From: a virus
DNA length: 30,200 bases
Reading direction: 5' to 3' (one strand)
Virus record (IMG/VR): IMGVR_UViG_3300045978_000294
Span: 1-30,200 of that record
Each line of letters begins with the position of its first letter. The first letter of the stretch is position 1. Of the stretch, positions 4,453 to 25,144 are shown piece by piece. Under the pieces are notes generated by a model that worked only from the letters and a program-made list of their open reading frames with translations, was not told the origin of the DNA and ran no database searches. Made by a program: the position numbers and the translations under genes.

Positions 4453-5904
4453 ATGCCACGCACGACACGGCGCCTCACCATCCAGACTGCCCTGACCGTC
4501 CCACCGGCACATCTCACCCTGAACAACCGCGAATACCTCACCGCGCCCGCTGTGCTCATTGTGGAAGGCGTATTGAACGACGCCTACATTCCCGGCAGCG
4601 AACTCGTTGCACACGACTGGAACAATGTCCCCGTCGTCATCAATCACCCGCTCGATCCGCAGGGCGTGCCCATGAGCGCACGGACTCCCGAGGTCCTCGC
4701 GCAATCAGGTGTCGGCCATCTGTATCACGCACGCCTAGGGGCAGGCCAGCGTCAGGGCCATACGGTCACCAGTTTGCAGGCCGAACTTTGGCTGGACGTC
4801 GCCCAGGTACAGACCTTGGGAGGCGAAGCAGCGCAGGCCATGACGATGCTGGAAGCGCAGACACCGCTCGAACTCTCGACGGGCTTTTACTCCTATGCCG
4901 AAGAGACGTCTGGGATCTTCTACGGGGTGCCCTATCGCGAGATTCATCATGATCTCCGCCCCGACCATCTCGCCCTCTTACCGAATGGCATCGGCGCCTG
5001 CGACTGGCAGAGCGGCTGCGGCTCGCCGCGCCTCAACCAGCAGTGCATCTGCCATCAGGAGACGCCTATGGACCATGCTCAGGCGCGCGGCTGGCGCGGC
5101 TTTGTGCACACCCTGAAAACCTTTGTGCAGCAGGAAGAGGCCGGGAGCACGTCTGGTGCACCGGCCGTCTTTGTCAACGGGTACTATGTGGGGGATGGTG
5201 CGCAGGAGCAGGTCTGTGCCCTGGCGCGGCAACTGCCGACACCACCGATCCGGACGAACCAGACCGACGCCGACACGCGCGAAGCACTCTATGGTGCGCT
5301 GGCACGCGAGATGGGGGTGGATTTCACCCCGATTTTTATCGATGCAGTCGATATGGCGAATCAGACGTTCACGTACCGGCAGGGTGAGCGCTTGATGCAG
5401 CGCTCATGGACCGTCGAGGACGGCCAGATCGTGCTCACCGACGGCGCCCAGGACGTTCAGCGCTCGACGTCGTATCTCCCTGTGACCCAACAACAGGAGG
5501 ACCCCCCTATGGCCACAGAGGCCGTCAAAGCGCGCGCCACTGCGCTCATTCAGCACACGCACACGAAGTGGCAGGAGAGTGACCGCGCTGTGCTCGAAGC
5601 GATGAGCGAAGCACAGCTCGCCTATCTCGAACCGGACGAGGCCGCACTGGCAGCACTCCAGGCGCAGGAAACCCGCAAGGCGGCGTTGATCACGGCGCTC
5701 GTCGGCAACAGTTGGTGCGTGCTGAGTGAATCGACGCTCAAGGGCATGAGTGTCGAGGACCTCGAAAAGCTCACCACCATGGGGCCACAAGAGGCGTCCT
5801 ATGCCGGGCAAGGGTTGCCGGTCACACGCACGGCCGGTGACGAGGACAGCGCCTGGCAACCGCTCTCCATCCTCACGAAAAAGGAGGTGGCCAGTGGCCG
5901 ATAA
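4453..5904 (+). CDS. Prohead protease (DUF2213-like) fused in frame to a scaffold-like region
   Basis: 483 aa from the ATG at 4453. The frame is open further upstream to 4315, but that would run through the terminator. There is no strong ribosome-binding site before 4453. The N-terminal ~200 residues resemble DUF2213 prohead proteases, with NHP (VVINHPLDPQG), ELSTGFYSYAEE, and REIHHDLRPDHLALLPNG near the end of the protease domain. Such enzymes cleave scaffold and capsid during maturation. Residues ~206-483 are of a different character: hydrophilic, with Glu/Ala/Gln-rich helices near the end, as expected of a scaffold. Two internal Met codons (206 and 353) are preceded by good Shine-Dalgarno sequences, suggesting separately made scaffold products as with lambda C/Nu3. 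Confidence 0.78.
   Translation: MPRTTRRLTIQTALTVPPAHLTLNNREYLTAPAVLIVEGVLNDAYIPGSELVAHDWNNVPVVINHPLDPQGVPMSARTPEVLAQSGVGHLYHARLGAGQRQGHTVTSLQAELWLDVAQVQTLGGEAAQAMTMLEAQTPLELSTGFYSYAEETSGIFYGVPYREIHHDLRPDHLALLPNGIGACDWQSGCGSPRLNQQCICHQETPMDHAQARGWRGFVHTLKTFVQQEEAGSTSGAPAVFVNGYYVGDGAQEQVCALARQLPTPPIRTNQTDADTREALYGALAREMGVDFTPIFIDAVDMANQTFTYRQGERLMQRSWTVEDGQIVLTDGAQDVQRSTSYLPVTQQQEDPPMATEAVKARATALIQHTHTKWQESDRAVLEAMSEAQLAYLEPDEAALAALQAQETRKAALITALVGNSWCVLSESTLKGMSVEDLEKLTTMGPQEASYAGQGLPVTRTAGDEDSAWQPLSILTKKEVASGR
5068..5904 (+). CDS. Candidate nested scaffold protein from internal in-frame start
   Basis: An in-frame ATG at 5068 (codon 206 of the protease gene) follows AGGAG (5057-5061) after 6 nt. 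The 15 bases from AGGAG through the ATG plus one (5057-5071) are identical to the start region of the ordinary gene at 25158 (25147-25161). The product would be 278 aa, beginning MDHAQARGWRGF just after the DUF2213-like domain ends. Nested protease/scaffold genes are known in lambda (C/Nu3) and several other phages. That this start is used is inference. Confidence 0.5.
   Translation: MDHAQARGWRGFVHTLKTFVQQEEAGSTSGAPAVFVNGYYVGDGAQEQVCALARQLPTPPIRTNQTDADTREALYGALAREMGVDFTPIFIDAVDMANQTFTYRQGERLMQRSWTVEDGQIVLTDGAQDVQRSTSYLPVTQQQEDPPMATEAVKARATALIQHTHTKWQESDRAVLEAMSEAQLAYLEPDEAALAALQAQETRKAALITALVGNSWCVLSESTLKGMSVEDLEKLTTMGPQEASYAGQGLPVTRTAGDEDSAWQPLSILTKKEVASGR
5509..5904 (+). CDS. Candidate second nested product (short scaffold) from internal start
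   Basis: A full AGGAGG (5495-5500) lies 8 nt before an in-frame ATG at 5509, codon 353 of the protease gene. This is as good as most real starts in the window. The product would be 131 aa, beginning MATEAVKARATALIQ, helical and rich in Ala, Glu and Gln over its first ~60 residues, which suits a scaffold core. It may be an alternative to, or made together with, the 278-aa product. Confidence 0.45.
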   Translation: MATEAVKARATALIQHTHTKWQESDRAVLEAMSEAQLAYLEPDEAALAALQAQETRKAALITALVGNSWCVLSESTLKGMSVEDLEKLTTMGPQEASYAGQGLPVTRTAGDEDSAWQPLSILTKKEVASGR

Positions 5905-7360: not shown

Positions 7361-7585
7361 GTGAGTGAAACGATTGGGCCGCATCGCTTGAAGAGTCCGC
7401 TGTCGCGCCTGGAGACGGACGCTGAGGGCAAGCCAGTCACGAAGCAGTATCAGACGGGTGAGGTGATCACGCCGACGGAGGCAGAGCTGAAGGCCTTTGG
7501 GGATCGCCTGGAGCCGGTGACAGACGCGTCAGCCCCAGCAGAGGAACCGCCTGCGGAAGAACCGGCGCCCAGAAGCCGCCGCTAG
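7361..7585 (+). CDS. Small capsid-neighbour protein sharing a domain with the upstream regulator
   Basis: 74 aa, GTG start after AAGGGGG. Residues 6-53 (GPHRLKSPLSRLE through DRLEPV) are a compact domain with a TGEVITPTEAELKAF core. It aligns without gaps to residues 314-361 of the regulator at 2978, with 27 of 48 identical. The C-terminal 20 residues are a low-complexity Glu/Pro/Ala tail ending RSRR. Small proteins with a GD/EVI...TEAEAxxL pattern are common just after capsid genes in siphoviruses; their role is unknown to me. It may be a connector accessory. The shared domain is the main point of interest. Confidence 0.6.
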   Translation: MSETIGPHRLKSPLSRLETDAEGKPVTKQYQTGEVITPTEAELKAFGDRLEPVTDASAPAEEPPAEEPAPRSRR

Positions 7586-7593
7586 GAGTCCCT

Positions 7594-7950
7594 ATGCCGC
7601 AACGTGTCAGCGACGCCGAGGTGCGCGTTATCTTTCCCACGACGCTGCCGACGCTGCAGCCGTTTATCGAGACGGCGAGTGTCTACGTCGATACGCATCT
7701 GGCTGGGACGGGGACAGCAGAGCCCGTGCTGAAAGAGATTGAACGCTATCTGAGCGCCCACTTCGCCTGCTTCGCGGACCCCCGCGCCCTGAGCGTTGCG
7801 GACGGCGATACCAGCGTGACACTGCAACGCGGCCAGGCGGGACAAGGATTGCACGCGACGCAGTACGGGCAGGCCGCGCTGGCGCTCGATGGCACGGGGA
7901 CGCTGCTGGCGCTCGGCACCAAGAAGCGGATGGTGATCAAGCTCTACTGA
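7594..7950 (+). CDS. Head-tail connector (adaptor)
   Basis: 118 aa, ATG after AGGAG. The N-terminal half is helical and has the gp6/DUF4054-like adaptor layout: RVSDAEVRVIFPT, then PFIETASVYVDTHLAG, then LKEIERYLSAHFA. The C-terminal half is beta-like, with YGQAALALDGTGTL. Adaptors of this kind form a dodecameric ring under the portal. It is the first of a run of connector/neck genes (7594-9036), in the usual order. Confidence 0.68.
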   Translation: MPQRVSDAEVRVIFPTTLPTLQPFIETASVYVDTHLAGTGTAEPVLKEIERYLSAHFACFADPRALSVADGDTSVTLQRGQAGQGLHATQYGQAALALDGTGTLLALGTKKRMVIKLY

Positions 7951-7960
7951 GGGGTCCCCT

Positions 7961-8302
7961 ATGCTCTCGCAACTGGTGATGGACCAGCTCGGCTGGCACG
8001 CGCGGCAGATGTATGGCGGGCTCATGGAGTCGGTCACCTACCGGCACCGCAGCGCCCCGAACGCCACGCCGACGCTGTACACGGTCTGCGCGCGTCTCAA
8101 GCACTACCGCGCCAACGAGATCGACCTGGAGCAGATCCTGCGCAACGACCTGGAGCTGCGCCTTCAGACGTCTCTGGTCACCTGGACGCCGACGCGCTAT
8201 GACGATGTCGCGCGCGCGGATGGCACGACGTGGCAGGTGCTGAACATCCTGGGAGGTCCTGGTCATCCCTGGTACAGGATGCAGGTGAGGCAGGTGGGCT
8301 GA
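7961..8302 (+). CDS. Head closure / neck protein
   Basis: 113 aa, ATG at 7961 preceded by a GAGGGG-type site. It has an N-terminal helix (LVMDQLGWHARQMYGGLM), then a strand-rich part (VTYRHRS, LYTVCARLKHY, ADGTTWQVLNILGG) ending in HPWYRMQVRQVG. Length and location between adaptor and the gp10-like protein match head-tail stopper proteins. I see no diagnostic motif, so the role is assigned by order. Its TGA overlaps the next ATG (TGATG). Confidence 0.55.
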   Translation: MLSQLVMDQLGWHARQMYGGLMESVTYRHRSAPNATPTLYTVCARLKHYRANEIDLEQILRNDLELRLQTSLVTWTPTRYDDVARADGTTWQVLNILGGPGHPWYRMQVRQVG

Positions 8303-8529
8303 TGCACGTGGGAGAACCGCTCAAGCCGACGGATCGCTATGTGCTCTTGCGTGAGGGTATTCCCTGCTTCACGACATCGCGCAAGAAAGACCTGGTACCC
8401 TATTTGTGGGGACGCATCCTACGGAGTGCTCCGCACGCCCCGGCGCGGTATGTGGTCCTGGACTATGAGGTGCCATACGTCGTCGATACGGCGAATGTTG
8501 ATGCGTTTGTGGCAGCGTTACCGGAGTAA
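8302..8529 (+). CDS. Small neck-region protein of unknown function
   Basis: 75 aa from the ATG at 8302, which overlaps the previous stop, so translation is probably coupled. The sequence (YVLLREGIPCFTTSRKKDLV, then YVVLDYEVPYVVDTANVDAF) looks like a small alpha/beta domain. No family is recognised. Its position among neck genes suggests a minor connector or assembly factor. Confidence 0.5.
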   Translation: MHVGEPLKPTDRYVLLREGIPCFTTSRKKDLVPYLWGRILRSAPHAPARYVVLDYEVPYVVDTANVDAFVAALPE

Positions 8530-8532
8530 CCC

Positions 8533-9036
8533 ATGGCTGAGTCCTTCATCACCTACAAGCTGACCGTCCCACGTATCCCGCTCCTCGATCCCGCGCAACG
8601 GCGCCAGGTCCTGACGCGGGAAGCCGCTATGGCCGTGCGACAGATTGTCGAAGCGGTGGCCAGCGAAGCGCGCGAGCGTACACCGGTGAACACGGGAATA
8701 CTGCGGGCCTCGATTGGCACGGATGTCTCCCTGGGCACCGCGGCTGGCGTGCTGGTGCGCGGCAGCGTCTTTACCGGGTCGCAGGCGCCCTACGCGCCGT
8801 ATGTGGAAGAGGGGACGGCGCCGCACTGGGCGCCCATCGGCCCGCTCAAGCTCTGGGCCAGGCGGGTCCTTGGCAACGAACGGGCGGCCTATGCCGTGCA
8901 GCGCGCCATCGCCAGGCGGGGCACACGCGGCCGGCATATGTTCCGGGATGCCATGGCGGCAGTCAGACCACGCATGGAAGGGATACTCAGGCAGGCCATA
9001 GAGCGGGCCGCCAGGATACTTCAGGGGGGCACATGA
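8533..9036 (+). CDS. HK97 gp10-like neck / tail-completion protein
   Basis: 167 aa. It contains the signature of the HK97 gp10 family: RTPVNTGILRASI (the TPVxTGxLRxSI block) and QAPYAPYVEEGTAPHWAP (YAxxVEEGTxPH). These proteins join the head connector to the tail terminator. The family is usually 110-170 aa and the length fits. The C-terminal region is rich in Arg and Ala and helical. The last codons overlap the next gene by 4 nt (ATGA). Confidence 0.85.
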   Translation: MAESFITYKLTVPRIPLLDPAQRRQVLTREAAMAVRQIVEAVASEARERTPVNTGILRASIGTDVSLGTAAGVLVRGSVFTGSQAPYAPYVEEGTAPHWAPIGPLKLWARRVLGNERAAYAVQRAIARRGTRGRHMFRDAMAAVRPRMEGILRQAIERAARILQGGT

Positions 9037-9380
9037 GCGATACCGAGATGATAGACGGCTATGCCATTGTCGAATTGATGGGTCATCAGACCATCGCCGG
9101 TCACGTCATGACAGCGGTGCTCGGGAGTACGGTCATGCTCCGGGTGGATGTGCCAGCACGCGGTGAGCACCTCGGCTTCACGCGGTATTACGGCATGAGT
9201 GCGCTCTACAGCCTGACCCTGGTCTCGGAAGAGGTCATGCTCGCCGCGCTTGACGAGCTGCACCCGCGACCCGTGACGGTGTACATGCCGCGCTTGTTAC
9301 CCCCGAAGGAAGAGACGTCCTATGCGGCCAACGTCTATGAGTATCGCGATGAGCACGAGGACGACAGCGATGCCCCTTGA
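9033..9380 (+). CDS. Conserved small protein (MGH...AGxV / YYG family), unknown function
   Basis: 115 aa, beginning on an ATGA overlap. The core has the pattern YAIVELMGHQTIAGHV, then VMLRVDVPA, then FTRYYGMSALYSLTLVSEEV. I recall this arrangement (E-x-MGH-x-x-xAG, LRVDVP, YYGxSA-Y-LT) from small uncharacterised proteins scattered through phages, plasmids and bacterial chromosomes; it was not searched. The acidic C-terminus (DEHEDDSDAP) is variable-looking. It sits between neck and tail-terminator genes, not a usual structural slot, so it could be a moron. Confidence 0.55.
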   Translation: MSDTEMIDGYAIVELMGHQTIAGHVMTAVLGSTVMLRVDVPARGEHLGFTRYYGMSALYSLTLVSEEVMLAALDELHPRPVTVYMPRLLPPKEETSYAANVYEYRDEHEDDSDAP

Positions 9381-10296
9381 TGCCATCCTGCAGGCGCTCC
9401 TGACGCCACTGCAGGCGATCCCTGCCATCGGCCAGGTCTACCCCTACGAGCGGATTGCCCTTGAGCCGACGACACTCAATGGCACGATCGGTCCGCTGCC
9501 AGCGCTGCGCTACTGGTGCCTGTCACGCGCCGGCACCACGGAAGTCTGGCGCACCAACGGCACTGTCGAGCGTCTGCACCGGTTGCGGCTCACGGGTTTT
9601 CTGGCCCTGGATGATCCGGCCGCCTCGGAGCGCGTCATGCAGGATCTGCTGGACGAGGTGCAGGCCGCGTTGTCGCAGGTGGTGACCATTCCGGGCAGCG
9701 CCGAGTATGTCAGCGCGCCACTGCTCGAGCGGCAGGAACCACGGCGACTGGCCGACACGGTGGATGCGCATGTGAGTGAGACGTTCATCGCCGTATCGGA
9801 GTATCTGGAGGTTGCGCCAGCGGCCAACCCCGATGCAACGATCACCACGTACCGCGCCCTGGGCGACTGGCTGGTCGCGCAACTCGGAACCATTCCGGAT
9901 ATCGGCCTGGTGCATCCCTACGAGCGCCTGATTGTCGAGCCGGATCTGGCTCCCGGCGTGTTTGGCGAGACGCAGCAGGTGCGCGCCTGGACGCTGACGC
10001 GGCACAGCATCCTGCCCGAGCGGCTGCCTGGGATCACGCAGCGTGCGCAGGACCGTCTTGTCTTGCGGGGATATATGAGCGTGGACGATACGCAGGCCTC
10101 CGAACTGGCCTTCCAGGATCTGCTCGAAGCCGTGGCGACCACGCTGCGGCCGATGCATACAGTGGGGAGTTTTGACCGCGTCGGACCCCTGACGATTGAG
10201 CAGGTCGGGCACGTGCGGCTCGGCCAGACCCATCTCTGTCATGCGGCGCAGTGCACCTTGCCTGTGGAAGCCTGGTCGCTGGCGCTGACTGCGTAA
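9370..10296 (+). CDS. Tail-terminator-like protein with tandemly duplicated domain
   Basis: 308 aa; the ATG at 9370 overlaps the preceding gene by 11 nt. Two homologous halves are visible. Residues ~5-145 and ~160-300 each contain IPxIGxVxPYER, EP, RxWxLxR, a basic R-L-x-L-x-G stretch, DDxxASE and QDLL(D/E)xV. Each half is about 140 aa, the usual size of a single tail terminator such as lambda gpU. The slot between the neck protein and the tail tube is the terminator's. The duplicated form is unusual: a ring of three double subunits could replace six single ones, which is inference. Confidence 0.65.
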   Translation: MPLDAILQALLTPLQAIPAIGQVYPYERIALEPTTLNGTIGPLPALRYWCLSRAGTTEVWRTNGTVERLHRLRLTGFLALDDPAASERVMQDLLDEVQAALSQVVTIPGSAEYVSAPLLERQEPRRLADTVDAHVSETFIAVSEYLEVAPAANPDATITTYRALGDWLVAQLGTIPDIGLVHPYERLIVEPDLAPGVFGETQQVRAWTLTRHSILPERLPGITQRAQDRLVLRGYMSVDDTQASELAFQDLLEAVATTLRPMHTVGSFDRVGPLTIEQVGHVRLGQTHLCHAAQCTLPVEAWSLALTA

Positions 10297-10312: not shown

Positions 10313-11500
10313 ATGGCGGCACCGCCAAGTGTGACAAGCATAGGCTATCTGACGCGGATCGGCGTAGGAGAGGAGGCGGATTACGGCGTGCCGATTCTCA
10401 CCACGCAGGTGCTCCCGAGCGTCTCTGAATCGCTCAATGATGTGTATGCAGAAATTCCGGACCTGTCCCTGCAGGGCTCGCCGATTGTCGATACGCCAGA
10501 GAAGGGGAACTTTAGCGCCACCGGCGATGTCGTGGTGCCGATGCGCTACCTCAATGAGTTTGTCCTGCTCAAGCACTTCTTTGGCGACTTCGCGGCCGGC
10601 CGCTATGACCTGGTGCCATCCCTCCAGGGCAAGGCCATTACCGTGGCCATTGACAAGCAGGTGCTAGGGGTCTGGGAGTATCCAGGCACAAAAGCCACGC
10701 AGATTGTCTGGACCTCAAACGCTGATGGCGTGCAGCTCCAGACCTCGATGATTCCCGGCGCCTTGAACCTGAATTCGTCGCTCAACACGTCGGGCCATCT
10801 CACCACGCTGGTGCAGGATGCGCGCCTGCTCCTGCATCATCATCTGGTCCTGATGGTGGGCACACAAGATCATGCCCTGGCCTTGCCGGCCGATGATCTC
10901 TGCGTCAGCGAGCTGACCCTGACCCTGGGACGCCCGATGGCGACCGATTATACCAACTGTTCGCAAAACCCGATGGAGCCCATTGAAAACGATTTCCTGA
11001 ATTTCCGTCTGGCGGTGACGTTTCCCAGGTTCCGCACGGAGGAAGAGCAAATCATCACCTGGCGCCAGAACTACACGCGCTTACATGCCTCGCTCGCCTA
11101 TACGCACCCGGTCAATGGCCGCACGAAAACTATCATTATCCCGAACCTGGTGTTCGTGACCGCGACCGCGCCGACCACCGGCCCTGGACCGCGCGTACTC
11201 TCGGCAGAGGCCTCGATTAGCCAGGGGAAAGATGTCACCACATCGGACCAGGTGAGTTTTCAGGCCAGCGACCGCTCGATCAACCTCACCGGCGGGGCGT
11301 TCCCGGCGCTCTATCCTGGTGCCACGGTCACCGTCAGCGGCGCGGCCACGGCGGGCAACAACGGCGCGTTTGTCGTGGCCACCTGGGCGCCGGCGAAGAT
11401 GACCCTGACGGCTGACGCCACCACGATTGTTGACGAAGCCGTAGGCGCCACGGTCACGGTGAGTACGAGTAATCCCCCGCTGTTCATGCTTGAAACCTAG
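10313..11500 (+). CDS. Major tail (tube) protein with C-terminal appended domain
   Basis: 395 aa, ATG after AAGGAGG. The first ~290 residues have the layout of a phage tail tube protein: opening GYLTRIGVGEEADYGVP, STGD-like FSATGDVVVPMRY, then long strand-rich stretches and PMEPIENDFLNFRLAVTFPR. Subunits of this type stack as hexameric rings to form the tube. Residues ~295-395 look like an added beta domain (RSINLTGGAFPALYPGATVTVSGA, GNNGAFVVATW), as seen on other tail tube proteins, exposed on the tail surface. Followed after 13 nt by the Glu-Pro microprotein. Confidence 0.75.
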   Translation: MAAPPSVTSIGYLTRIGVGEEADYGVPILTTQVLPSVSESLNDVYAEIPDLSLQGSPIVDTPEKGNFSATGDVVVPMRYLNEFVLLKHFFGDFAAGRYDLVPSLQGKAITVAIDKQVLGVWEYPGTKATQIVWTSNADGVQLQTSMIPGALNLNSSLNTSGHLTTLVQDARLLLHHHLVLMVGTQDHALALPADDLCVSELTLTLGRPMATDYTNCSQNPMEPIENDFLNFRLAVTFPRFRTEEEQIITWRQNYTRLHASLAYTHPVNGRTKTIIIPNLVFVTATAPTTGPGPRVLSAEASISQGKDVTTSDQVSFQASDRSINLTGGAFPALYPGATVTVSGAATAGNNGAFVVATWAPAKMTLTADATTIVDEAVGATVTVSTSNPPLFMLET

Positions 11501-15205: not shown

Positions 15206-18200
15206 ATGCCGCCGATTATCCTTGAGATCTTGGTTGATAGCGACCGTGGCGTCGTCGAACTAAAGCAGTTTGATAAAGCGGTCCAGGACACCACCAAGAG
15301 CGTGGACGCGGGGAATCAGACACACAAAGAAGGCGCCCAGGCCAGCAGTGTGTTTGGCAGCTCGCTGGCCCAGAGCGCCAAGTCCGCCACAGCCCTCTCC
15401 CTGGCCTTTGCCGGGATCGCCGGTATTGGCGCGACGCTGGGAGCGGCAGCCAGCAGCGCGGCCTCCTTTGAGGCAGCCCTCAATGCGATTGCCGCGCTGG
15501 GCACGGTCAGTGCGCGCCAGCTCACCACCCTGCGCGAGCAGCTCCTGGCGCTGCCGCCGGCGCTGGGCTCGTCAACCGAGCTGGCCAAGGGCCTCTACGA
15601 TATTCTCGGCGCCAACGTGCCTGCCGAAAACGCCATTACCGTCCTGACTCGGTCCGCCGAACTGGCGAAAGGGGGACTCGGGAACCTCGATACCGCCATT
15701 AACGCCGTCACAAAATCAGCGGCCGCATTCGGTATCCCCCTCTCCGAGGCGCAGTACGTCACCGATGTCTTCACGCAGACGGTGGTCCGGGGCCAGGGCC
15801 GCATGGAAGAATTTGCCCAGGCCTTCCCCCAGGTGGCGGCCACGGCGGCGGCGGCCGGGTCGAGTTTTGTCGACACCAACGCGGCGATCGCCGTCCTGAC
15901 GCAGACCTTCAAGAACGCCGACACTGCCGCCACGGGCCTCAATTCCTTCTTCCAGCAACTGATTCAAAACAGTGGCAAGCTCGCGGCCGAGGGGATTAAC
16001 GTCAAGCAGGTGCTGGCGGAAGAGGGCTTAACAGGGTTGTTTCGGCGCCTCTCCGAAGCCACGGGCGGCAGCGCTGAGCGCTTAAAAGAGTTGATCAACG
16101 ACTCAGAAGGCTTCCGCGCCGCGCTCACCCTCACCGGGACGCAGTTCCAGACCTTTAACGAGACCGTAGAATCGTATGCCAACGTCGCCGGCCTGGCGCA
16201 GCAGGCTGCCAGCAAGAACCTGTCGGGCGCCACGGCAAGCTGGCACACGTTTCTCAATACGCTCGATCGCCTGGTGCAGGAAGTGGCGCCGCCGCTCCTC
16301 GAGGCCTTTACGCGCATTACAGGGGTGGCTGCGACCCTGGCTGGCGATGTCACCAAGCTTTACCGCGCCTTTGCCCAGAGCGAGTTCCTGCAGTCCCTGA
16401 TCGCTGACTTCAAGACGTTTTTTGGCATCATTGGTGACACGCAGGCCGTACGCGACCTGGCGGGCGCCATGGGCGAACTCAATCAGAGCATGCTCACCGC
16501 TACGGGGAGTTCGGGGGAGATGTACAACGCTCTCGACGTGCTGGACCAGCTCCTCAAGGGCAACGTGCGCCCAGCCATCGATTTTGTCACGGCAGGCTGG
16601 GATTTGCTCAACGCCGCCTTTGATTACACCGTGGCCGGGGTGATCAAGCTCGGGCAGTATTTTGTTGATGGCCTGGTAGTGCCGCTGTCCCAGGTGATCG
16701 CCGCGCTGGATCAAGCGGCCACGGCGCTCGGCATCTCTGATGGCCGCTTCAGCACGCTCGGAGAGACGGCCAAGCAACTCAGCGTCGATTTGTCGCAGGC
16801 CAGTGCCACCTTTGTGGAAATGGCGGACGAGTACGTTCTGGGGACGCACCGCCTGAGTACGGCCCAGGAACGGGCCGACAAGGACGTGCAAGTGACGACC
16901 AAGAGCGTCCAGACGCAGGGTACGGCCCTGAAGGACCAGGGCGCTGCGGCCTCCACGGCGACGCACCAGACAACACAGCTCAGTGCCGCGCAGCAAGACC
17001 TCAACAAGGCCTTCGAGGACGCGAACACTGCGGCGAGCAAACTGAAGGGGACGCTGGAAAAGCTCAAGCTCGGCGATGTGATGAAGGCCATTTCCACCGT
17101 CGAGTTGAGCAATGCGGTGGGCGCGGTCATGGAAGATCTGCAGACCATGGAAGCAAGCGGCAAATTTTCCGCGCGCCAGATTGCTAAGGCCTATGAGGAC
17201 GCAGCGGCGGTCTTGCGTGAACGCTTTGGCTTCCTGCCCGGCGTCTTTCAGCAGGCCTTTGATCGCATGCGGGCGCAGGCCCTCAACACAGAAGATGGCG
17301 TCGTTCTGGCCTTTGAGCGCATGGGGGTGAAGATTCGCGGGGACTTGCAGCAGACCGCGAGGGAAGCCTTGAACGATTTTCAGGCGATCCTCGACTCCGG
17401 CGGAGCTGTTCCGCGCGAGTTGCTCGATGTCTACCTGGATGTCCTGGACCAGATCGACAAGGCCGGCTTCCAGCGCCTGCCTGAAAACTTTCAGGCGGTC
17501 AATCAGCGCATGCTCGATGTGGCCAGGAAGGCCGGGGTCGACTTGCCACAGCCCTACGTCGACGCCTTTGGCCAGATTGCCACGGCGGGCAAGCAAGCCG
17601 CTGAGGCGATCGATCTCTCCTGGCTGCAAAGCCGCGGCGTCCTGGAGCGTGCCCGAGGGACAGTGGAAGACCTCGCCGAGTCGGTCGTAAAGCTCAGCGA
17701 TGAAACCCAGCGCTTGATGGATTTGCAGATTTCCGTCGAGACGCGGTTTGCCAGCGATGTGCCTGGATTGCTGAAACAGTACAATCAGGCCGTGAAGGAA
17801 CTCTACAACCTGCAAAGCAATGTGATCACCATGGCGGGCGGGGCACCGGGGGAGCGGGACTTTCGGATCAATCAGCAGCTCGAAATCATCAAGGCGATTA
17901 TCGCCGCGCTTGCCAAGCTGGGCGTGAACGAGCTGGGCCAGGCGCTGCCTGGCACCACGGGCGGAGGCATGGGCGGCGGGGGCATCCCCACGAGCGGCGG
18001 AGCCGGGAGCATCACGACTGGCGGCATACCGTCACGCACGACAGGCATCCCGAGTGCGAGCAGCCCGTACCAGGCGGTGCCGTCTGCGCCGCTCGGAGGG
18101 ACGTCGATACAGAGTGCGCCGCTGCCCACGTCGACCACGCAGCGCACCTATACCATGTACATTCAAACCCAGGCCACGGACGCCGCAACGCTGGCCAGGG

Positions 18201-18256
18201 ATCTCGTGCCGTATCTGCGCCAGTCGGATCTGTCGCCGCGGCCACTCGGAGGATAG
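15206..18256 (+). CDS. Tape measure protein (TP901-type core)
   Basis: 1016 aa; the ATG directly abuts the chaperone stop. Residues ~60-330 match the phage tape measure core: FEAALNAIAALGTVSARQL, a run of Ala/Gly-rich helices, then PQVAATAAAAGSSFVDTNA and ALNSFF-like GLNSFFQQLIQNS. A hydrophobic stretch near 60-95 could be the membrane-active part. The rest is long helical, with a Gly/Ser/Thr-rich C-terminal tail (~910-980) that may be trimmed. Tape measure length sets tail length at about 0.15 nm per residue, predicting roughly 150 nm. No lytic transglycosylase or peptidase domain is obvious. Confidence 0.92.
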   Translation: MPPIILEILVDSDRGVVELKQFDKAVQDTTKSVDAGNQTHKEGAQASSVFGSSLAQSAKSATALSLAFAGIAGIGATLGAAASSAASFEAALNAIAALGTVSARQLTTLREQLLALPPALGSSTELAKGLYDILGANVPAENAITVLTRSAELAKGGLGNLDTAINAVTKSAAAFGIPLSEAQYVTDVFTQTVVRGQGRMEEFAQAFPQVAATAAAAGSSFVDTNAAIAVLTQTFKNADTAATGLNSFFQQLIQNSGKLAAEGINVKQVLAEEGLTGLFRRLSEATGGSAERLKELINDSEGFRAALTLTGTQFQTFNETVESYANVAGLAQQAASKNLSGATASWHTFLNTLDRLVQEVAPPLLEAFTRITGVAATLAGDVTKLYRAFAQSEFLQSLIADFKTFFGIIGDTQAVRDLAGAMGELNQSMLTATGSSGEMYNALDVLDQLLKGNVRPAIDFVTAGWDLLNAAFDYTVAGVIKLGQYFVDGLVVPLSQVIAALDQAATALGISDGRFSTLGETAKQLSVDLSQASATFVEMADEYVLGTHRLSTAQERADKDVQVTTKSVQTQGTALKDQGAAASTATHQTTQLSAAQQDLNKAFEDANTAASKLKGTLEKLKLGDVMKAISTVELSNAVGAVMEDLQTMEASGKFSARQIAKAYEDAAAVLRERFGFLPGVFQQAFDRMRAQALNTEDGVVLAFERMGVKIRGDLQQTAREALNDFQAILDSGGAVPRELLDVYLDVLDQIDKAGFQRLPENFQAVNQRMLDVARKAGVDLPQPYVDAFGQIATAGKQAAEAIDLSWLQSRGVLERARGTVEDLAESVVKLSDETQRLMDLQISVETRFASDVPGLLKQYNQAVKELYNLQSNVITMAGGAPGERDFRINQQLEIIKAIIAALAKLGVNELGQALPGTTGGGMGGGGIPTSGGAGSITTGGIPSRTTGIPSASSPYQAVPSAPLGGTSIQSAPLPTSTTQRTYTMYIQTQATDAATLARDLVPYLRQSDLSPRPLGG

Positions 18257-18259
18257 GGC

Positions 18260-18634
18260 ATGCTGCCGCAATTCGTCAAAGAGGGGGTGCCGCCCGTGAC
18301 CCTGGGGCGGGGCCAGATGTGGCCAGCGCAGAGCAGTATCGAAACCGGGCAAGTCGTGGCGCTCACCGATGGCACACAGGCCCTGGCCTACAAATTCGCC
18401 GTGCCACGACCGCGCTACACGGTCCAGTTCACCGGCCTGTCGCAGGGGGATTTTGATGCACTGTGGGCCTTCCTGTGGCATCCCCTGGTGGATGGCAGTC
18501 AGCAGCCGTTTACCTGGATCGATGAGCGCGGCGTCAGCCGCCAGGTGCGTTGGCTCCTGGACACCGCCTTTACCTGGGAAGAGACCTCGGCAGGACGCCT
18601 GAGCGTGACTTTAGTATTGCGCGAGGAGGGCTAA
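18260..18634 (+). CDS. Distal / minor tail protein
   Basis: 124 aa, starting 3 nt after the tape measure stop. It contains RYTVQFTGLSQGDFDALWAF, FTWIDERGVSRQVRWLL and a closing LSVTLVLREEG: strand, helix, strand elements as in small distal-tail-type beta domains where a coat of strands surrounds one helix. Position immediately after the tape measure is where distal tail or lambda M-like proteins sit. The role is inferred from order and pattern. Confidence 0.6.
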   Translation: MLPQFVKEGVPPVTLGRGQMWPAQSSIETGQVVALTDGTQALAYKFAVPRPRYTVQFTGLSQGDFDALWAFLWHPLVDGSQQPFTWIDERGVSRQVRWLLDTAFTWEETSAGRLSVTLVLREEG

Positions 18635-18636
18635 GG

Positions 18637-20610
18637 ATGCGTACCGTGTCCGCGGCCTGGGCACCCCTGGTGGCCACGTACCGGGAAGGGCGGGGCGTAG
18701 AAGACTACCTGGCCGTGCTCGTGCCCAGTCGCAACCTGGCGCTCACCTCGCGGCTCTGGCCAGAGGGCTGGCTGCCGGCCGGGATCACCGTCTATCCCTC
18801 CCTGGCGGCGCGTGGCCAGGGTATCGGCAGTATCAGCGTTGAGCTGGCGGATGATCGGTCCTCGCGCCTGGGAACCGTCAACTGCCAGGTGCGCATCCAG
18901 GCCGGCCAGGCCGGGGCGCCGCTGAGCAGTCTGCAGCAGTTACTCCTGACACTGGCGGAGCAGCCCGCCGTGGTCTGCGCCGGGTTTCTAGGAGGGTTGG
19001 CGCACGCTGATGCCGAGATTCTGACGCTCTTTAGTGGGCGCATCGCCACGCCGCGTCTGGCGCGTGGCCTACTCACCTTCACGATCGTGGATGGCAGCAA
19101 GTACGATCACCGTGATATTGAGGTGCCGCTGGGCAGTAGCGTCTTTCCTGGCGCACCGCTCGAAGCCCACGGGCTGTCGATTCCCCTGGTCATCGGGACC
19201 GCGCTGGGCGTGGCGCCGACGCTGGTCTCGTCGCTGGCCAACGGCACGCTCGCCACGCCATTGCCGGCTGCAGACGTGGAGACGATCAATCTGGAGGAAA
19301 CCGGGGCGAACTTCCCGGAAGCCGGCGCCGTGCTCATTGACAGCGAAACCATCACCTATAGTGGCCGGCGTATCGGGCTGCTCCTGGACGGTGCCTCGGC
19401 GCTGCAACTGCTCAACCCGGTGCGCAGCGCTCCGGTCGAGCATCTGGCCGGTGCCGCCGTCACGTTGGCGCCACCGCTCGTCTACCGCTACCTGATCGGG
19501 CTGGGCCTGACGCCGCTCGAACTGCTGGCAGTGCGGGACCAGGACGGCGTGATTGCTGAATATACGTTTGTGCCGAGTGCGCCAGGGCTGCCAGCCGATA
19601 CCGCAGTGCTCGAACTCCCGAGCGCGCACGAGGGCGTCCAGGTGGATGTCCAGGTGATCCCAGAGCCGCCGCTGCCGCCCCTGCTCAATGGCGGCTTTGA
19701 AGCGGGGACGCTGGCGCCTTGGACAGCCCTGGCCGGGAGCACCGCAGCGGTCGTCTTGCAGGAGACGCAGGCCGGGACGTACAAGCTGCAGCTGCAAGAG
19801 GTCGGGACGGCCCTGGCCGGCGTCACGCAAGACGTCGCCGTGCAGGTTGGCGAGCGCTACGTACTGCTGTTTCACTGGCGCACGCCGATTCGTATGGCGG
19901 ACAACTTGCTCGATAATGGCGATTTCGGGGAACCCCCGGACGTGTTCTGGGAAATTATCATCGCGGGCGCCGAGTATCCTGAGCCCACCTATGACCCGCC
20001 CCCCGTGCCCGTGGCGCCGCCTGAGCCGCCGCCTGAGCCGCCGCCGCCAAGTGTCGTCGATGAGCATGGCCGCCTGGTCTTTACGCTCCCTCCCGCACCG
20101 TTTTATGAGCTGCCTGATCCTCTGGAGCCGGCCGGCTTTCTCACGGCCGCTGGCTATGCCACCTACCATATTGCCATGCGGCAAACGCTCAACGCTGCGC
20201 TGACGCCAGGGCAGGCGATCATGATTGATGTGCGTGCGGCAGCGTTTATTCAGCGCGCGGTGCCGGGGCTGGTGCCTCCGACCGTCACCATCTCGGAGCC
20301 CTCCGGGGTGGCCGGCAACTTCGGAGTGCCGACGCTCCCTGGGCATCTGCCGCCGCTCAGCGAAGTGACCATTAACGCGCGGCTCTGGCCACTCAATCCC
20401 AATGCCAGTTTTCCCGCCTGGCAACGCTTTTTGCAGCCGGATCAACCGCCCAGCACGGAGGGACGTCTGGTAGAATTTCGCTTGCCGCTTGGGCAGGATC
20501 GCATGGTGCCAACCCAGACTAACTATCAGTTTGAAGTGGTCGTCAGCGGGGTCTATATCGGCACCATTCCCCCGATTGTGGTGAGCACCGCCGTGGTCTC
20601 GGTGGCATAA
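18637..20610 (+). CDS. Tail tip protein with interrupted carbohydrate-binding-like module
   Basis: 657 aa, ATG at 18637 after GAGGAGG. Residues ~1-345 look like a baseplate/tail-tip protein (EDYLAVLVPSRNLALTSRLW, ISVELADDRSSRLGTV, LLTFTIVDGSKYD, DSETITYSG). Residues 349-418 match the first half of a CBM4/9-like module (NGGFEAGTLAPWTALAG, then VTQDVAVQVGERYVLLFHWRT). The expected second half is not here but at the start of the next gene. From residue 420 a different segment follows: a second NLLDNGDF opening, a Pro-rich linker (PPEPPPEPPPP), then ~190 residues of unrecognised strand-rich sequence to the stop. Confidence 0.65.
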   Translation: MRTVSAAWAPLVATYREGRGVEDYLAVLVPSRNLALTSRLWPEGWLPAGITVYPSLAARGQGIGSISVELADDRSSRLGTVNCQVRIQAGQAGAPLSSLQQLLLTLAEQPAVVCAGFLGGLAHADAEILTLFSGRIATPRLARGLLTFTIVDGSKYDHRDIEVPLGSSVFPGAPLEAHGLSIPLVIGTALGVAPTLVSSLANGTLATPLPAADVETINLEETGANFPEAGAVLIDSETITYSGRRIGLLLDGASALQLLNPVRSAPVEHLAGAAVTLAPPLVYRYLIGLGLTPLELLAVRDQDGVIAEYTFVPSAPGLPADTAVLELPSAHEGVQVDVQVIPEPPLPPLLNGGFEAGTLAPWTALAGSTAAVVLQETQAGTYKLQLQEVGTALAGVTQDVAVQVGERYVLLFHWRTPIRMADNLLDNGDFGEPPDVFWEIIIAGAEYPEPTYDPPPVPVAPPEPPPEPPPPSVVDEHGRLVFTLPPAPFYELPDPLEPAGFLTAAGYATYHIAMRQTLNAALTPGQAIMIDVRAAAFIQRAVPGLVPPTVTISEPSGVAGNFGVPTLPGHLPPLSEVTINARLWPLNPNASFPAWQRFLQPDQPPSTEGRLVEFRLPLGQDRMVPTQTNYQFEVVVSGVYIGTIPPIVVSTAVVSVA

Positions 20611-20621
20611 AGGAGGAGCGC

Positions 20622-22838
20622 GTGGCTGAAGAGAGCAGGCAGGGGCGTGCGATTATTCGCCTGGGAACGCCGACGAACCCGACCCTCTATACAGCGCGGG
20701 TGCTGCGCGGACCGTCGAGCTGGCAGCGGCTCGCGCTGGCCTTTGTCGCCACCGAGCCGACCCTGCGCATTTCCTTACTGGGGCAGGCCGATACGCCAGG
20801 GCAGACGGTGGAATTCGACGGCATCCGGTTCTTGCCGCCTGGACGCAATCCCGTCCTGCTCATGGCCACCATCTTTGCGCGCTTTTTGCCGCATCTGGAG
20901 CTCGACCAGGCCAGCGTGACGGCCGCCGCTGAGCGGCGCAATGAATGGCTGTTTAGTGGCTATATCCCTGACCCTGGGCGCACCGATAACCTGCTGACGC
21001 GCATGGCGCAGGAGTGCTTCTGCACGGTGTTCAAGGACCTCGACGGCGTCTACAGGATTACGGCCGATGATCCGGACCATCTGCCAGTCCTGCATCTGGA
21101 CAGCCAACACGACATTGTCCAGGAGACGCTTGAGGTCCAGGGCCTGCCGATGGAGCAGGCCTACACGGATTTTTACCTGTGGTATCAGCGGGTCACGTCG
21201 CAGGTCACCACGAGCCAGGCCGGGCAGTACGCCGCCGTACTCTATGTCACACCAGACGACTCGATCAGCCAGTACGCCGAACTCCAGACGCTCTGCGCGC
21301 AGGCCGCCGACGCCTTGCAGACGCGCACGCGCTTTGATTTCCACTGCGACTTCATCGCCGACCCGGCCACCGCCGACCTGCTCCTGTCGCGCCTGGTGCG
21401 CCAGCTCACCGTGCTCAGGCGCGAGGTGTCGCTGTCGGCGACGCTGCCGGCCCTGCCGCTGAGCGTGACCGATCATGTCGCGGTGCGTGCACCGCTGCTC
21501 GGCCAGCAGCCATTTGTCGGGGAACTGCGGCGGGCGGCGGTGGGCTTCACGTCGCAGGCGCCAGGTTTGGCGATGGCGCTCACTTTGCGCGAATCGGGTT
21601 TACTGCGCGGCGTGTGGGAGTCGTGGGACACCACCGCTGGGGATACGGCCGCGATGGGACCACGCGGCTCAACGCGGGTGCGGGAATCCTGGGAGCATGT
21701 GCAGCGCTGGTTCCACCATACCTCTTTTGCGGCGTATGGGGCAGGGGGTACCTGGTGTCCGGCGCTGGCCGGGCTGTTTTCGCCGGCCCTGGCCAGCGAA
21801 CAAGAACAGCTCTACCTGGCCCTTGGGCCAGGACTCAGCGCGTTGCCCTCGGCGCGGACCGCGCCCCCGCTCTGGAAATTCACCAATGCCAATGTGGCGA
21901 CAATGGCCTGGAGTTCGGCGCTGACCGCCAGTAGCGCCGGGGCCGGCACCGCGCTCACCATGCTCACCGGAGCCGGAACCCCGCCGGCGCTGACCCCCTA
22001 TGCCGCGCTGATTCCTCCTGCGGCCGTCACCCCGACGCTCTGGCAACTCGACCCCGCCAATGCTGCGGCAGGGCAACAGCTTGCGACGGTCCCTGGGGGG
22101 CTCACAGGGTCGCGGGTCTGGAGCATGTTCCATGACGGCGTCAACCTGTATATCGGTTTGGCCAGGGGCGAGGTCTACCGCATCGCGTCCGGAGGTGGCG
22201 CGACGCTGGTGCATACGGTCGATCCAGGGGGGTCTCCTGGCCGGCGCGTGCGGTCCATGATGCTCGTGGCCGGAGGCGGCGCGTACTGGATCGCCGCCGA
22301 TAATGTCTCGCTCACCAGTACGCCCTCCGCGCTGATTTACCGCTCGAATGTCACGGTGCCGCCGAACTGGAACATCTATGCTATTGGCGGCACGCAGGTG
22401 TGCAACTTCGTGGCATGGAACGACACCCTCTGGATTGCCAGCGGTCTCGGCGCCGGCGCTGGCGCAGGGACGCGAGTAGACCTCTGGGCGCTGGCGGGTG
22501 ATGGGGTCACCTGGAGTATCCGCTACACCATAAGCGGCCTGACCGATGCGCTCCCGAGCAGTCTGGCCGCGTATGATGGCAGGCTGTATCTCGGCCTCAT
22601 GTCCATGACACAAACCACGTCTCTCAAGCAGATCTGGCGCTCGGATACGACTGGCGATGCCTGGGAGCTGGATATCGATGTTGCGGTCGCGTTTCCCGCT
22701 GACCTCAACACCGGTGTGACGGCACTGGGCGTGGCGCGGCGGCGCCTGTACGCGGCAACCGGTACCCCGTTCGGTGGACCAAGCAGCGGCGTGCAGGTCT
22801 ATTGCAGTCCAGGCCCGGAAGCCATTACAGGAGCCTGA
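20622..22838 (+). CDS. Tail hub-like protein with C-terminal propeller-like region
   Basis: 738 aa, GTG start after AAGGAGGAG. Residues ~12-75 look like the second half of a carbohydrate-binding module (LYTARVLRGPSSWQRLALAF, VEFDGIRFLPPG). Residues ~80-340 resemble tail hub/baseplate proteins (NLLTRMAQECFCTVFKDLDGVYRI, SDHV-like LPLSVTDHVAVRAPL, GFTSQAPGLAMALTLRES). Residues ~360-738 carry repeated blade-like strands (VWSMFHDGVNLYIGLARGEVYRI, GTQVCNFVAWNDTLWIASG, SSLAAYDGRLYLGL, VARRRLYAATG), suggesting a beta-propeller fused to the hub. It would sit at the tail tip and contact the cell surface. Domain calls are from pattern only. Confidence 0.6.
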   Translation: MAEESRQGRAIIRLGTPTNPTLYTARVLRGPSSWQRLALAFVATEPTLRISLLGQADTPGQTVEFDGIRFLPPGRNPVLLMATIFARFLPHLELDQASVTAAAERRNEWLFSGYIPDPGRTDNLLTRMAQECFCTVFKDLDGVYRITADDPDHLPVLHLDSQHDIVQETLEVQGLPMEQAYTDFYLWYQRVTSQVTTSQAGQYAAVLYVTPDDSISQYAELQTLCAQAADALQTRTRFDFHCDFIADPATADLLLSRLVRQLTVLRREVSLSATLPALPLSVTDHVAVRAPLLGQQPFVGELRRAAVGFTSQAPGLAMALTLRESGLLRGVWESWDTTAGDTAAMGPRGSTRVRESWEHVQRWFHHTSFAAYGAGGTWCPALAGLFSPALASEQEQLYLALGPGLSALPSARTAPPLWKFTNANVATMAWSSALTASSAGAGTALTMLTGAGTPPALTPYAALIPPAAVTPTLWQLDPANAAAGQQLATVPGGLTGSRVWSMFHDGVNLYIGLARGEVYRIASGGGATLVHTVDPGGSPGRRVRSMMLVAGGGAYWIAADNVSLTSTPSALIYRSNVTVPPNWNIYAIGGTQVCNFVAWNDTLWIASGLGAGAGAGTRVDLWALAGDGVTWSIRYTISGLTDALPSSLAAYDGRLYLGLMSMTQTTSLKQIWRSDTTGDAWELDIDVAVAFPADLNTGVTALGVARRRLYAATGTPFGGPSSGVQVYCSPGPEAITGA

Positions 22839-23702: not shown

Positions 23703-24026
23703 GTGGCGATCAAGCAACTCTGTGGCGTTGCGCTGCCGTCCAGCGTGTTGACCAGTGTGTATACCGCGCCTGCGGAGGTCGCCATCTCCACGCTCGTCGT
23801 GACGAATCGTGGAGCCAGTGCGACCACGTTTCGCCTGGCCCATGCGCCAGGGGGGGCGGCGGACGCGCCAGGGCAGTATTTTGCCTATGACGTGCCCATT
23901 GCACCCAATACGATGGTGCCTTTCACCATGGGTATTTGCCTCAGTGCTGGTGATGCATTGCGGGCGTATGCAGGGAATGCCAATCTGACGGTGATCGCCT
24001 GGGGCGAAGAAGGTTCTAGCCTATGA
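23703..24026 (+). CDS. Conserved phage structural protein of receptor-end cluster
   Basis: 107 aa; a GTG start at 23703 is chosen because it lies 2 nt after the previous stop and begins the recognisable sequence. The pattern VAIKQLCGVALPSS, VYTAPAEVAISTLVVTNRG, FRLAHAPGG, YFAYDVPIAPNTMVPFTMGICLSAGD is one I recall from many phage structural clusters: a small beta sandwich of ~110 aa. It probably forms part of a fibre or tip. Its end overlaps the fibre gene start (ATGA). Confidence 0.6.
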   Translation: MAIKQLCGVALPSSVLTSVYTAPAEVAISTLVVTNRGASATTFRLAHAPGGAADAPGQYFAYDVPIAPNTMVPFTMGICLSAGDALRAYAGNANLTVIAWGEEGSSL

Positions 24027-25144
24027 GCGTTACTCCCTATCCGAATCCCGTTGACGCGCTTGATCCAACCTTGCAGGCGCTTGCGGCACTCCCGACCAGC
24101 GCTGACCGCGTGCCGTATTTTACGGGGGTGGATACGGCGACCACGGCGGCGCTGACGGCGTTTGCGCGCTCGCTGCTCGATGACGCGGACGCGGCGGCGA
24201 TGCGCGCAACGCTGGGGCTGGGGACGCTGGCGACACAGGACGCCAACGCCGTGGCGATTACCGATGGCCGCATCAGCCTGGGTGGGCACGCCTCCACCGG
24301 CGTGCTCGATGTGCAGGGCAGTGTGGTGGCGAGCGATGAACCGGGAAACTATTTTACGGTGCGTGCCTGGCCGGTCGCGCCGAGCGGCATCAGTACCGCG
24401 CAACCCATTCGTGTCGAGCCCATTACCGGGGCTGGTCTCAGCGGGTGTACGTTCTATGGCCTTGGCGTGCAGAATCAGTCGGCGTCCTTAAGTGGCGCGA
24501 CGGCCTTGATCCTCAATATCTCCAGTGGCAGTAATCGCTATAACGTTCGCGCCTCGGGCACCGCGCAGAACTACTTTGCGGGCAACGTCGGGATTGCCAA
24601 CTCCGCGCCGAGCTATCCGCTCGATGTGACGGGGCATGTGAACGTGACCAGCTCGCTCATGCTCAATGGGATGAGCGCGTCGAATCGCCTTTCCGTTGAA
24701 TATAACCGCACTACGGGATCTGGCGTGACTATCCGCCCTAGCGCCGATACGGGCGGCGGCAACACGATTCTTTTCCAGAATGCCGCTGGAACGGCTGTAG
24801 GGGCGATCACCACCTCAGCCACCGCCACCACGTATGCCACCTCCAGCGACCGCCGCCTGAAACGCAACGTGGCCCCCCTCGCCAACGCCCTCGCCACGCT
24901 GCGCCAGGTGCGGCCGGTGGCGTTTCGGTGGAACGTGGATGACTCGCCTGGCGAAGGCTTCCTCGCTGACCAAGTACAGCAGCTCATCCCGACCGCCGTG
25001 ACCGGCGAGCCGGACCAAATCGACGCGCAGGGCCATATCGTTCCACAAGGCATGGATCACAGCAAACTTGTGCCGTGGCTGACAGCAGGGCTGCAAGAAC
25101 TCGCAGCCCGCCTGGAGGCCATTGAATCGGCCCTTGGCCTCTAA
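24023..25144 (+). CDS. Tail fibre with S74 intramolecular chaperone (self-cleaving)
   Basis: 373 aa. The N-terminal ~85 residues are a common fibre stem pattern (LAALPTSADRVPYFTG, LTAFARSLLDDADAAAMRATLGLGTLATQ). The middle is strand-rich. The C-terminus is a peptidase S74/endosialidase-type chaperone: SSDRRLKRNVAPL, then RPVAFRWN, GFLADQVQQLIP and a final helix for trimerisation. In this family Ser of SD-x-R-x-K and the Lys five residues later form the cleavage dyad; here these are Ser275 and Lys280. Cleavage would release a ~99-aa chaperone and leave a mature fibre of ~274 aa. This is the best candidate for host recognition in the window. Confidence 0.85.
   Translation: MSVTPYPNPVDALDPTLQALAALPTSADRVPYFTGVDTATTAALTAFARSLLDDADAAAMRATLGLGTLATQDANAVAITDGRISLGGHASTGVLDVQGSVVASDEPGNYFTVRAWPVAPSGISTAQPIRVEPITGAGLSGCTFYGLGVQNQSASLSGATALILNISSGSNRYNVRASGTAQNYFAGNVGIANSAPSYPLDVTGHVNVTSSLMLNGMSASNRLSVEYNRTTGSGVTIRPSADTGGGNTILFQNAAGTAVGAITTSATATTYATSSDRRLKRNVAPLANALATLRQVRPVAFRWNVDDSPGEGFLADQVQQLIPTAVTGEPDQIDAQGHIVPQGMDHSKLVPWLTAGLQELAARLEAIESALGL

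Follow-up and report, generated by a model that had tools for sequence, protein, structure and literature searches.

The tail region of this phage raises the question of how a single carbohydrate-binding-type module (CBM) came to be divided between two adjacent genes, and whether its halves still work together. The window analysed is the whole of a 30.2-kb uncultured virus record, which carries a siphophage-type structural module of portal, head genes, tape measure and tail genes; all of the sequences are uncultured, and the proteins are known here from their genes alone. The tail module is marked by the tape measure gene (15206 to 18256; PHROG 'tail length tape measure', E = 1.3e-30), and its genes and their parts described here lie on the forward strand. 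It is followed by a gene for a small distal-tail-like protein of 124 aa (18260 to 18634), the assignment of which is weak, as its resemblance to DUF2460 (Pfam E = 0.0049) falls below the cut-off; this gene is 79-89% identical in relatives and adjoins the hub gene in every one. Directly behind these lie the genes of interest, P0001 (18637 to 20610, 657 aa) and P0002 (20622 to 22838), in the position of a siphophage hub or Tal, and from this gene order behind the tape measure gene we infer that they encode the tail hub. No gp27-like or lambda J-like match was found for the hub by sequence, nor any match to solved hubs, and a full-length AlphaFold2 model of the intact hub described below was too poor for use (pLDDT 37). 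Further downstream, the window has an S74 gene at 24023 to 25144.

P0001 begins with a hub N-terminal part (about residues 1-342; 18637 to 19662) that is conserved in relatives, with identities of 77-81% in those sharing the split arrangement and 64-67% in the intact relative. There follows the first half of a CBM_4_9-type module (19681 to 19887), assigned by its match to the PF02018 profile, such that the protein reads ...LLNGGFEAGTLAPW...GERYVLLFHWRTPI up to 19890. Another 238 residues then precede the stop codon, corresponding to a fast-evolving nested module with a proline-rich loop (19894 to 20607), which belongs to no known family. From its GTG at 20622, P0002 has a short N-terminus and then runs IIRLGTPTNP...SSWQRLALAF...VEFDGIRF, the usual ending of a CBM_4_9-type module; this second half (20652 to 20831) is assigned on the basis of a profile shuffle test and the predicted fold of the intact relative. 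Hence the proposal of a sequence-only reading of this DNA, that one module is shared between the two genes and that a second module of about 238 residues occupies the gap between its first half and the stop, was borne out. The remainder of P0002 consists of the hub C-terminal part (20832 to 21620; 79-86% identical in split relatives and about 70% in the intact one) and a variable, repeat-like and beta-rich extension of about 400 aa (21639 to 22835), with a mean pairwise identity of 43-61% as against 84-94% in the hub part. This extension, which is possibly propeller-like and had no Pfam or PHROG match, is found in all split relatives and is lacking in the intact one, the hub of which ends soon after that point.

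The break between the genes (20608 to 20624) is composed of a TAA stop codon (20608-20610), an AGGAGG motif (20611-20616), a 5-nt spacer and the GTG start (20622-20624). The same arrangement is present in all six of the close relatives, which are viral metagenomic contigs (L004 to L009) with flanks 77-86% identical to the window; two of these, L007 and L009, yield identical proteins in this region. In the window, 11 nt separate the stop from the GTG; the distinct relatives have 9, 10, 10, 11 and 14 nt there, and across the split relatives the reading frame of P0002 is offset from that of P0001 by each of the three possible values (0, 1 and 2). Every P0002 start has a Shine-Dalgarno sequence matching at five or six of six positions, a quality found at only 5% of the GTGs in the window, and lying 5-7 nt before the GTG. 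As this sequence touches or overlaps the stop codon, translation of the two genes is suggested to be coupled. An assembly artefact is ruled out by the recurrence of the break on six relative contigs. So too is programmed frameshifting or readthrough, because the offset assumes all three values and every relative starts P0002 from a Shine-Dalgarno sequence and GTG of its own. Fragmentation by a mobile element was considered and rejected as well: no homing endonuclease or intron lies at the break, which amounts to only 9-14 nt in all relatives, and the nested module itself has no nuclease match in Pfam and is present without a break in the intact relative.

The evidence that the two halves belong to one domain comes from profiles and from structure prediction. 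The Pfam CBM_4_9 family (PF02018) matches P0001 residues 349-411 over profile positions 4-69 of 136, with no extension into the second half, and the scores of the first half, 26.0-31.5 bits, are just above the curated cut-off of 25.9. A local CBM profile was built from five plasmid-encoded CBMs, and the joined halves were scored against it in comparison with the first half joined to 1000 shuffled versions of the second. None of the shuffles scored as well as the true pair in the intact relative L015, and few did so in the window (15), L008 (19) and L004 (33); in L006 the second half brought no gain, 392 of the 1000 being as good. Amongst solved structures, the profile of the joined halves best matched 8xmz, a porphyran-binding CBM, over positions 9-123 of 139 (E = 0.015), compared with positions 9-41 (E = 0.17) when the first half was used by itself.

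An AlphaFold2 model of L015 residues 347-725, for which the split halves were supplied as alignment rows, is of moderate confidence, having a mean pLDDT of 56 and values of about 65-79 in the CBM strand regions. With VIA-align, 8xmz, CBM16, CBM4-2 and the CBM4 structure 1gui all aligned to it over 123-127 residues (Z 10.9-12.0), with matches spanning model residues from about 5 to about 379, a range that gives the first and last residues only. Since the halves measure about 135 residues when joined and about 68 each, the aligned length implies that both are used, although this is judged from length and not from a residue map. A Foldseek search with the two-domain model was uninformative, giving low TM-scores over the whole chain. 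In the predicted structure of the intact sister, therefore, both halves fold as one CBM beta-sandwich. The module may bind carbohydrate.

The sequence-only reading had suggested looking for a relative with an uninterrupted gene, and one was found. In a sister phage about 65-70% identical to the window in the flanks, represented by contigs L015 and L016 from metagenomes 3300014879 and 3300021081 (which agree at 10,980 of 10,981 positions), the locus is a single continuous open reading frame of 1028 residues. Its product is ordered as hub N-terminal part, CBM first half, nested module, a proline-rich linker ATPAAPEDPPEDVVLQGTG, CBM second half and hub C-terminal part, and it reads VVAATPAAPEDPPEDVVLQGTG where the split clade has a stop and a start. 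Measured between the nested module's final conserved strand and a conserved QG, the interval is about 16 codons (48 nt) in L015; in the split relatives it holds the stop, 9-14 nt and six codons. On this comparison a large insertion at the break is excluded, and the stop and start either arose in the short linker that follows the nested module or were lost from it. The module and the gene break are thus independent features, because L015 carries the former in frame without a stop or start. The L015 linker also contains GGAGGAC-GTG in frame (4985-4994), near the position of the P0002 start in the split clade but with a spacing of 2 nt, possibly a weak internal start. Elsewhere in L015, two successive open reading frames (7377 to 9520) end in S74-chaperone-like C-termini that closely resemble one another, which suggests that a tail fibre was duplicated.

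These observations are probably best explained by fission: P0001 and P0002 would be two pieces of one siphophage tail-tip gene, of the baseplate hub or Tal type, with the CBM completed in trans. The starting form, kept by L015 and L016, would have been a single chain in which the CBM halves flank the nested module and are themselves flanked by the two hub parts; in the clade of the window, the gene would then have been interrupted within the short linker that follows the nested module, giving rise to the stop, Shine-Dalgarno sequence and GTG. Coupled translation could supply P0001 and P0002 in similar amounts, and the products would form parts of a trimeric tail-tip hub, in which the hub parts bring the chains together, the CBM beta-sandwich is completed by the two chains, and the nested module is held outside and displayed at the seam, facing the receptor. 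Whether the virion thereby contains a natural split domain, with each tail-tip protein contributing half of a carbohydrate-binding beta-sandwich that is completed only on assembly, we regard as an evenly balanced proposition.

The strongest alternative, which we consider unlikely without dismissing it, reverses the direction: two adjacent hub genes sharing one domain would be the older state, and L015 and L016 would have joined them. Two-gene hubs with a domain spread over both proteins do exist, in lambda and RcGTA (PMC10721106). Judged by the sequences compared, fusion in L015 would be as short a path as fission and the direction is unrooted, as only one intact lineage was found and no outgroup hub was found in the viral or genome collections; the sole match amongst phage records, over 43 residues of Vibrio phage 1.262.O at E = 0.6, was uninformative. 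However, a CBM beta-sandwich lying on two chains must once have been on one, and fission on the branch of the window requires no prior break followed by a re-joining.

If fission did occur, it might have abolished the CBM, such that the halves no longer pair and each persists merely as a hub part or linker. This would suit a first half that now ends in a long foreign module, and the pairing of the chains is something we infer. Against it stand the patterns of selection, estimated as dN/dS by the Nei-Gojobori method for the computed pairs in the split clade, with values that are approximate because synonymous sites approach saturation in some of the pairs. They are 0.11-0.17 for the hub N-terminal part and 0.10-0.15 for the C-terminal part, and 0.09-0.12 and 0.07-0.18 for the first and second halves of the CBM. 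Hence both halves are under strong purifying selection, at the level of the hub, which argues that each continues to be required at the protein level despite the break; the conserved strand residues of the CBM halves are also kept in all split relatives. Loss of the CBM is therefore quite improbable, and the earlier suggestion that the halves are still used together seems likely to be right.

The nested module behaves differently, with a dN/dS of 0.28-0.42, clearly above those of the CBM halves and the hub, and an identity to the window of 50-57% in split relatives; the L015 module is 36-43% identical. Such fast change fits an exposed part facing the receptor, and the module is probably a decoration of this kind. 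No match to it was found in Pfam or by sequence in the PDB. It contains a proline- and glutamate-rich stretch, PPEPPPEPPPP (19993 to 20052), whose length differs among relatives and which L006 and L015 lack, constituting a flexible loop that expands or shrinks. That the module is a second copy of the CBM was rejected, as it has no profile similarity and scores -4.1 against the local CBM profile; its start, N..NGDF..W, is no more than suggestive. It is the interrupted CBM fold that points to this module having been inserted into the CBM, since no relative lacking it, nor any wider homologue, was found among viral contigs, genomes and phage records. The weakest account of the locus, namely the sequence-only proposal that one insertion of about 770 bp marked by ATTCG (19888 and 20655) made nested module, stop and start together, would explain both the separate evolutionary rate of the segment and the presence of the pentamer at its two edges in the window, but is very improbable given that L015 and L016 carry the module in frame with neither stop nor start, which contradicts it unless they represent a re-fusion, and that ATTCG is absent from the relatives and hence a chance occurrence.

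The intermediate steps between one- and two-protein siphophage hubs are rarely seen, whereas here near relatives display the two forms. With the break lying in a linker inside an interrupted domain, it becomes testable how structural phage genes can split without loss of function, as does the completion of a sugar-binding domain by two chains during tail assembly. Were the split domain real, the effect of the break on host recognition could be compared directly between intact and split phages. The locus also carries a warning for annotation, in that the N-terminus of P0002 looks meaningless unless it is joined to the preceding gene.

Several known systems bear comparison, the nearest being the hubs of T5, lambda and RcGTA. 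In T5 a single protein, pb3, forms the hub, and its HDII-insertion domain has a plug domain nested within it. In lambda (gpL/gpJ) and RcGTA (gp13/gp15), the C-terminal end of one protein and the N-terminal end of a second share the HDII-insertion domain between them, and in lambda the plug has a gene of its own between those for gpL and gpJ (PMC10721106). The present putative hub resembles these in consisting of a single protein in some phages and a pair in others, with L015 and L016 providing the single-chain counterpart. It differs in that the divided domain is CBM_4_9-like, that both states are found in close relatives with flanks about 65-70% identical, that the nested module remains part of the first chain, and that the two genes adjoin one another directly. 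The evolved Dit and Tal proteins of siphophages carry CBM insertions, and in Brussowvirus Tals a pair of modules is inserted between gp27-like sub-domains 3 and 4 (PMC7291167, PMC9437275). These share with our locus the insertion of carbohydrate-binding-type modules in tail-tip proteins near the tape measure gene; however, those described are single chains with modules in series, whilst here one module is nested in another and it is there that the gene break falls. Genes in pieces are known from T4-like phages, as in nrdA of Aeh1 and gene 43 of phage 25, and the split NrdA reassembles and works experimentally (PMC2988022). There a continuous phage gene became two coding regions, the products of which must reassemble, as is proposed for the present locus, but here the break comprises 9-14 nt with no homing endonuclease or other inserted element, and the product is a structural protein and not an enzyme. 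No published account of a CBM-type domain divided between two phage genes was found in the open-access literature, which is weak evidence of absence. What sets the locus apart from these systems is that a CBM-type domain is spread over two genes, that close relatives show both the split and the intact form, and that no mobile element lies at the break.
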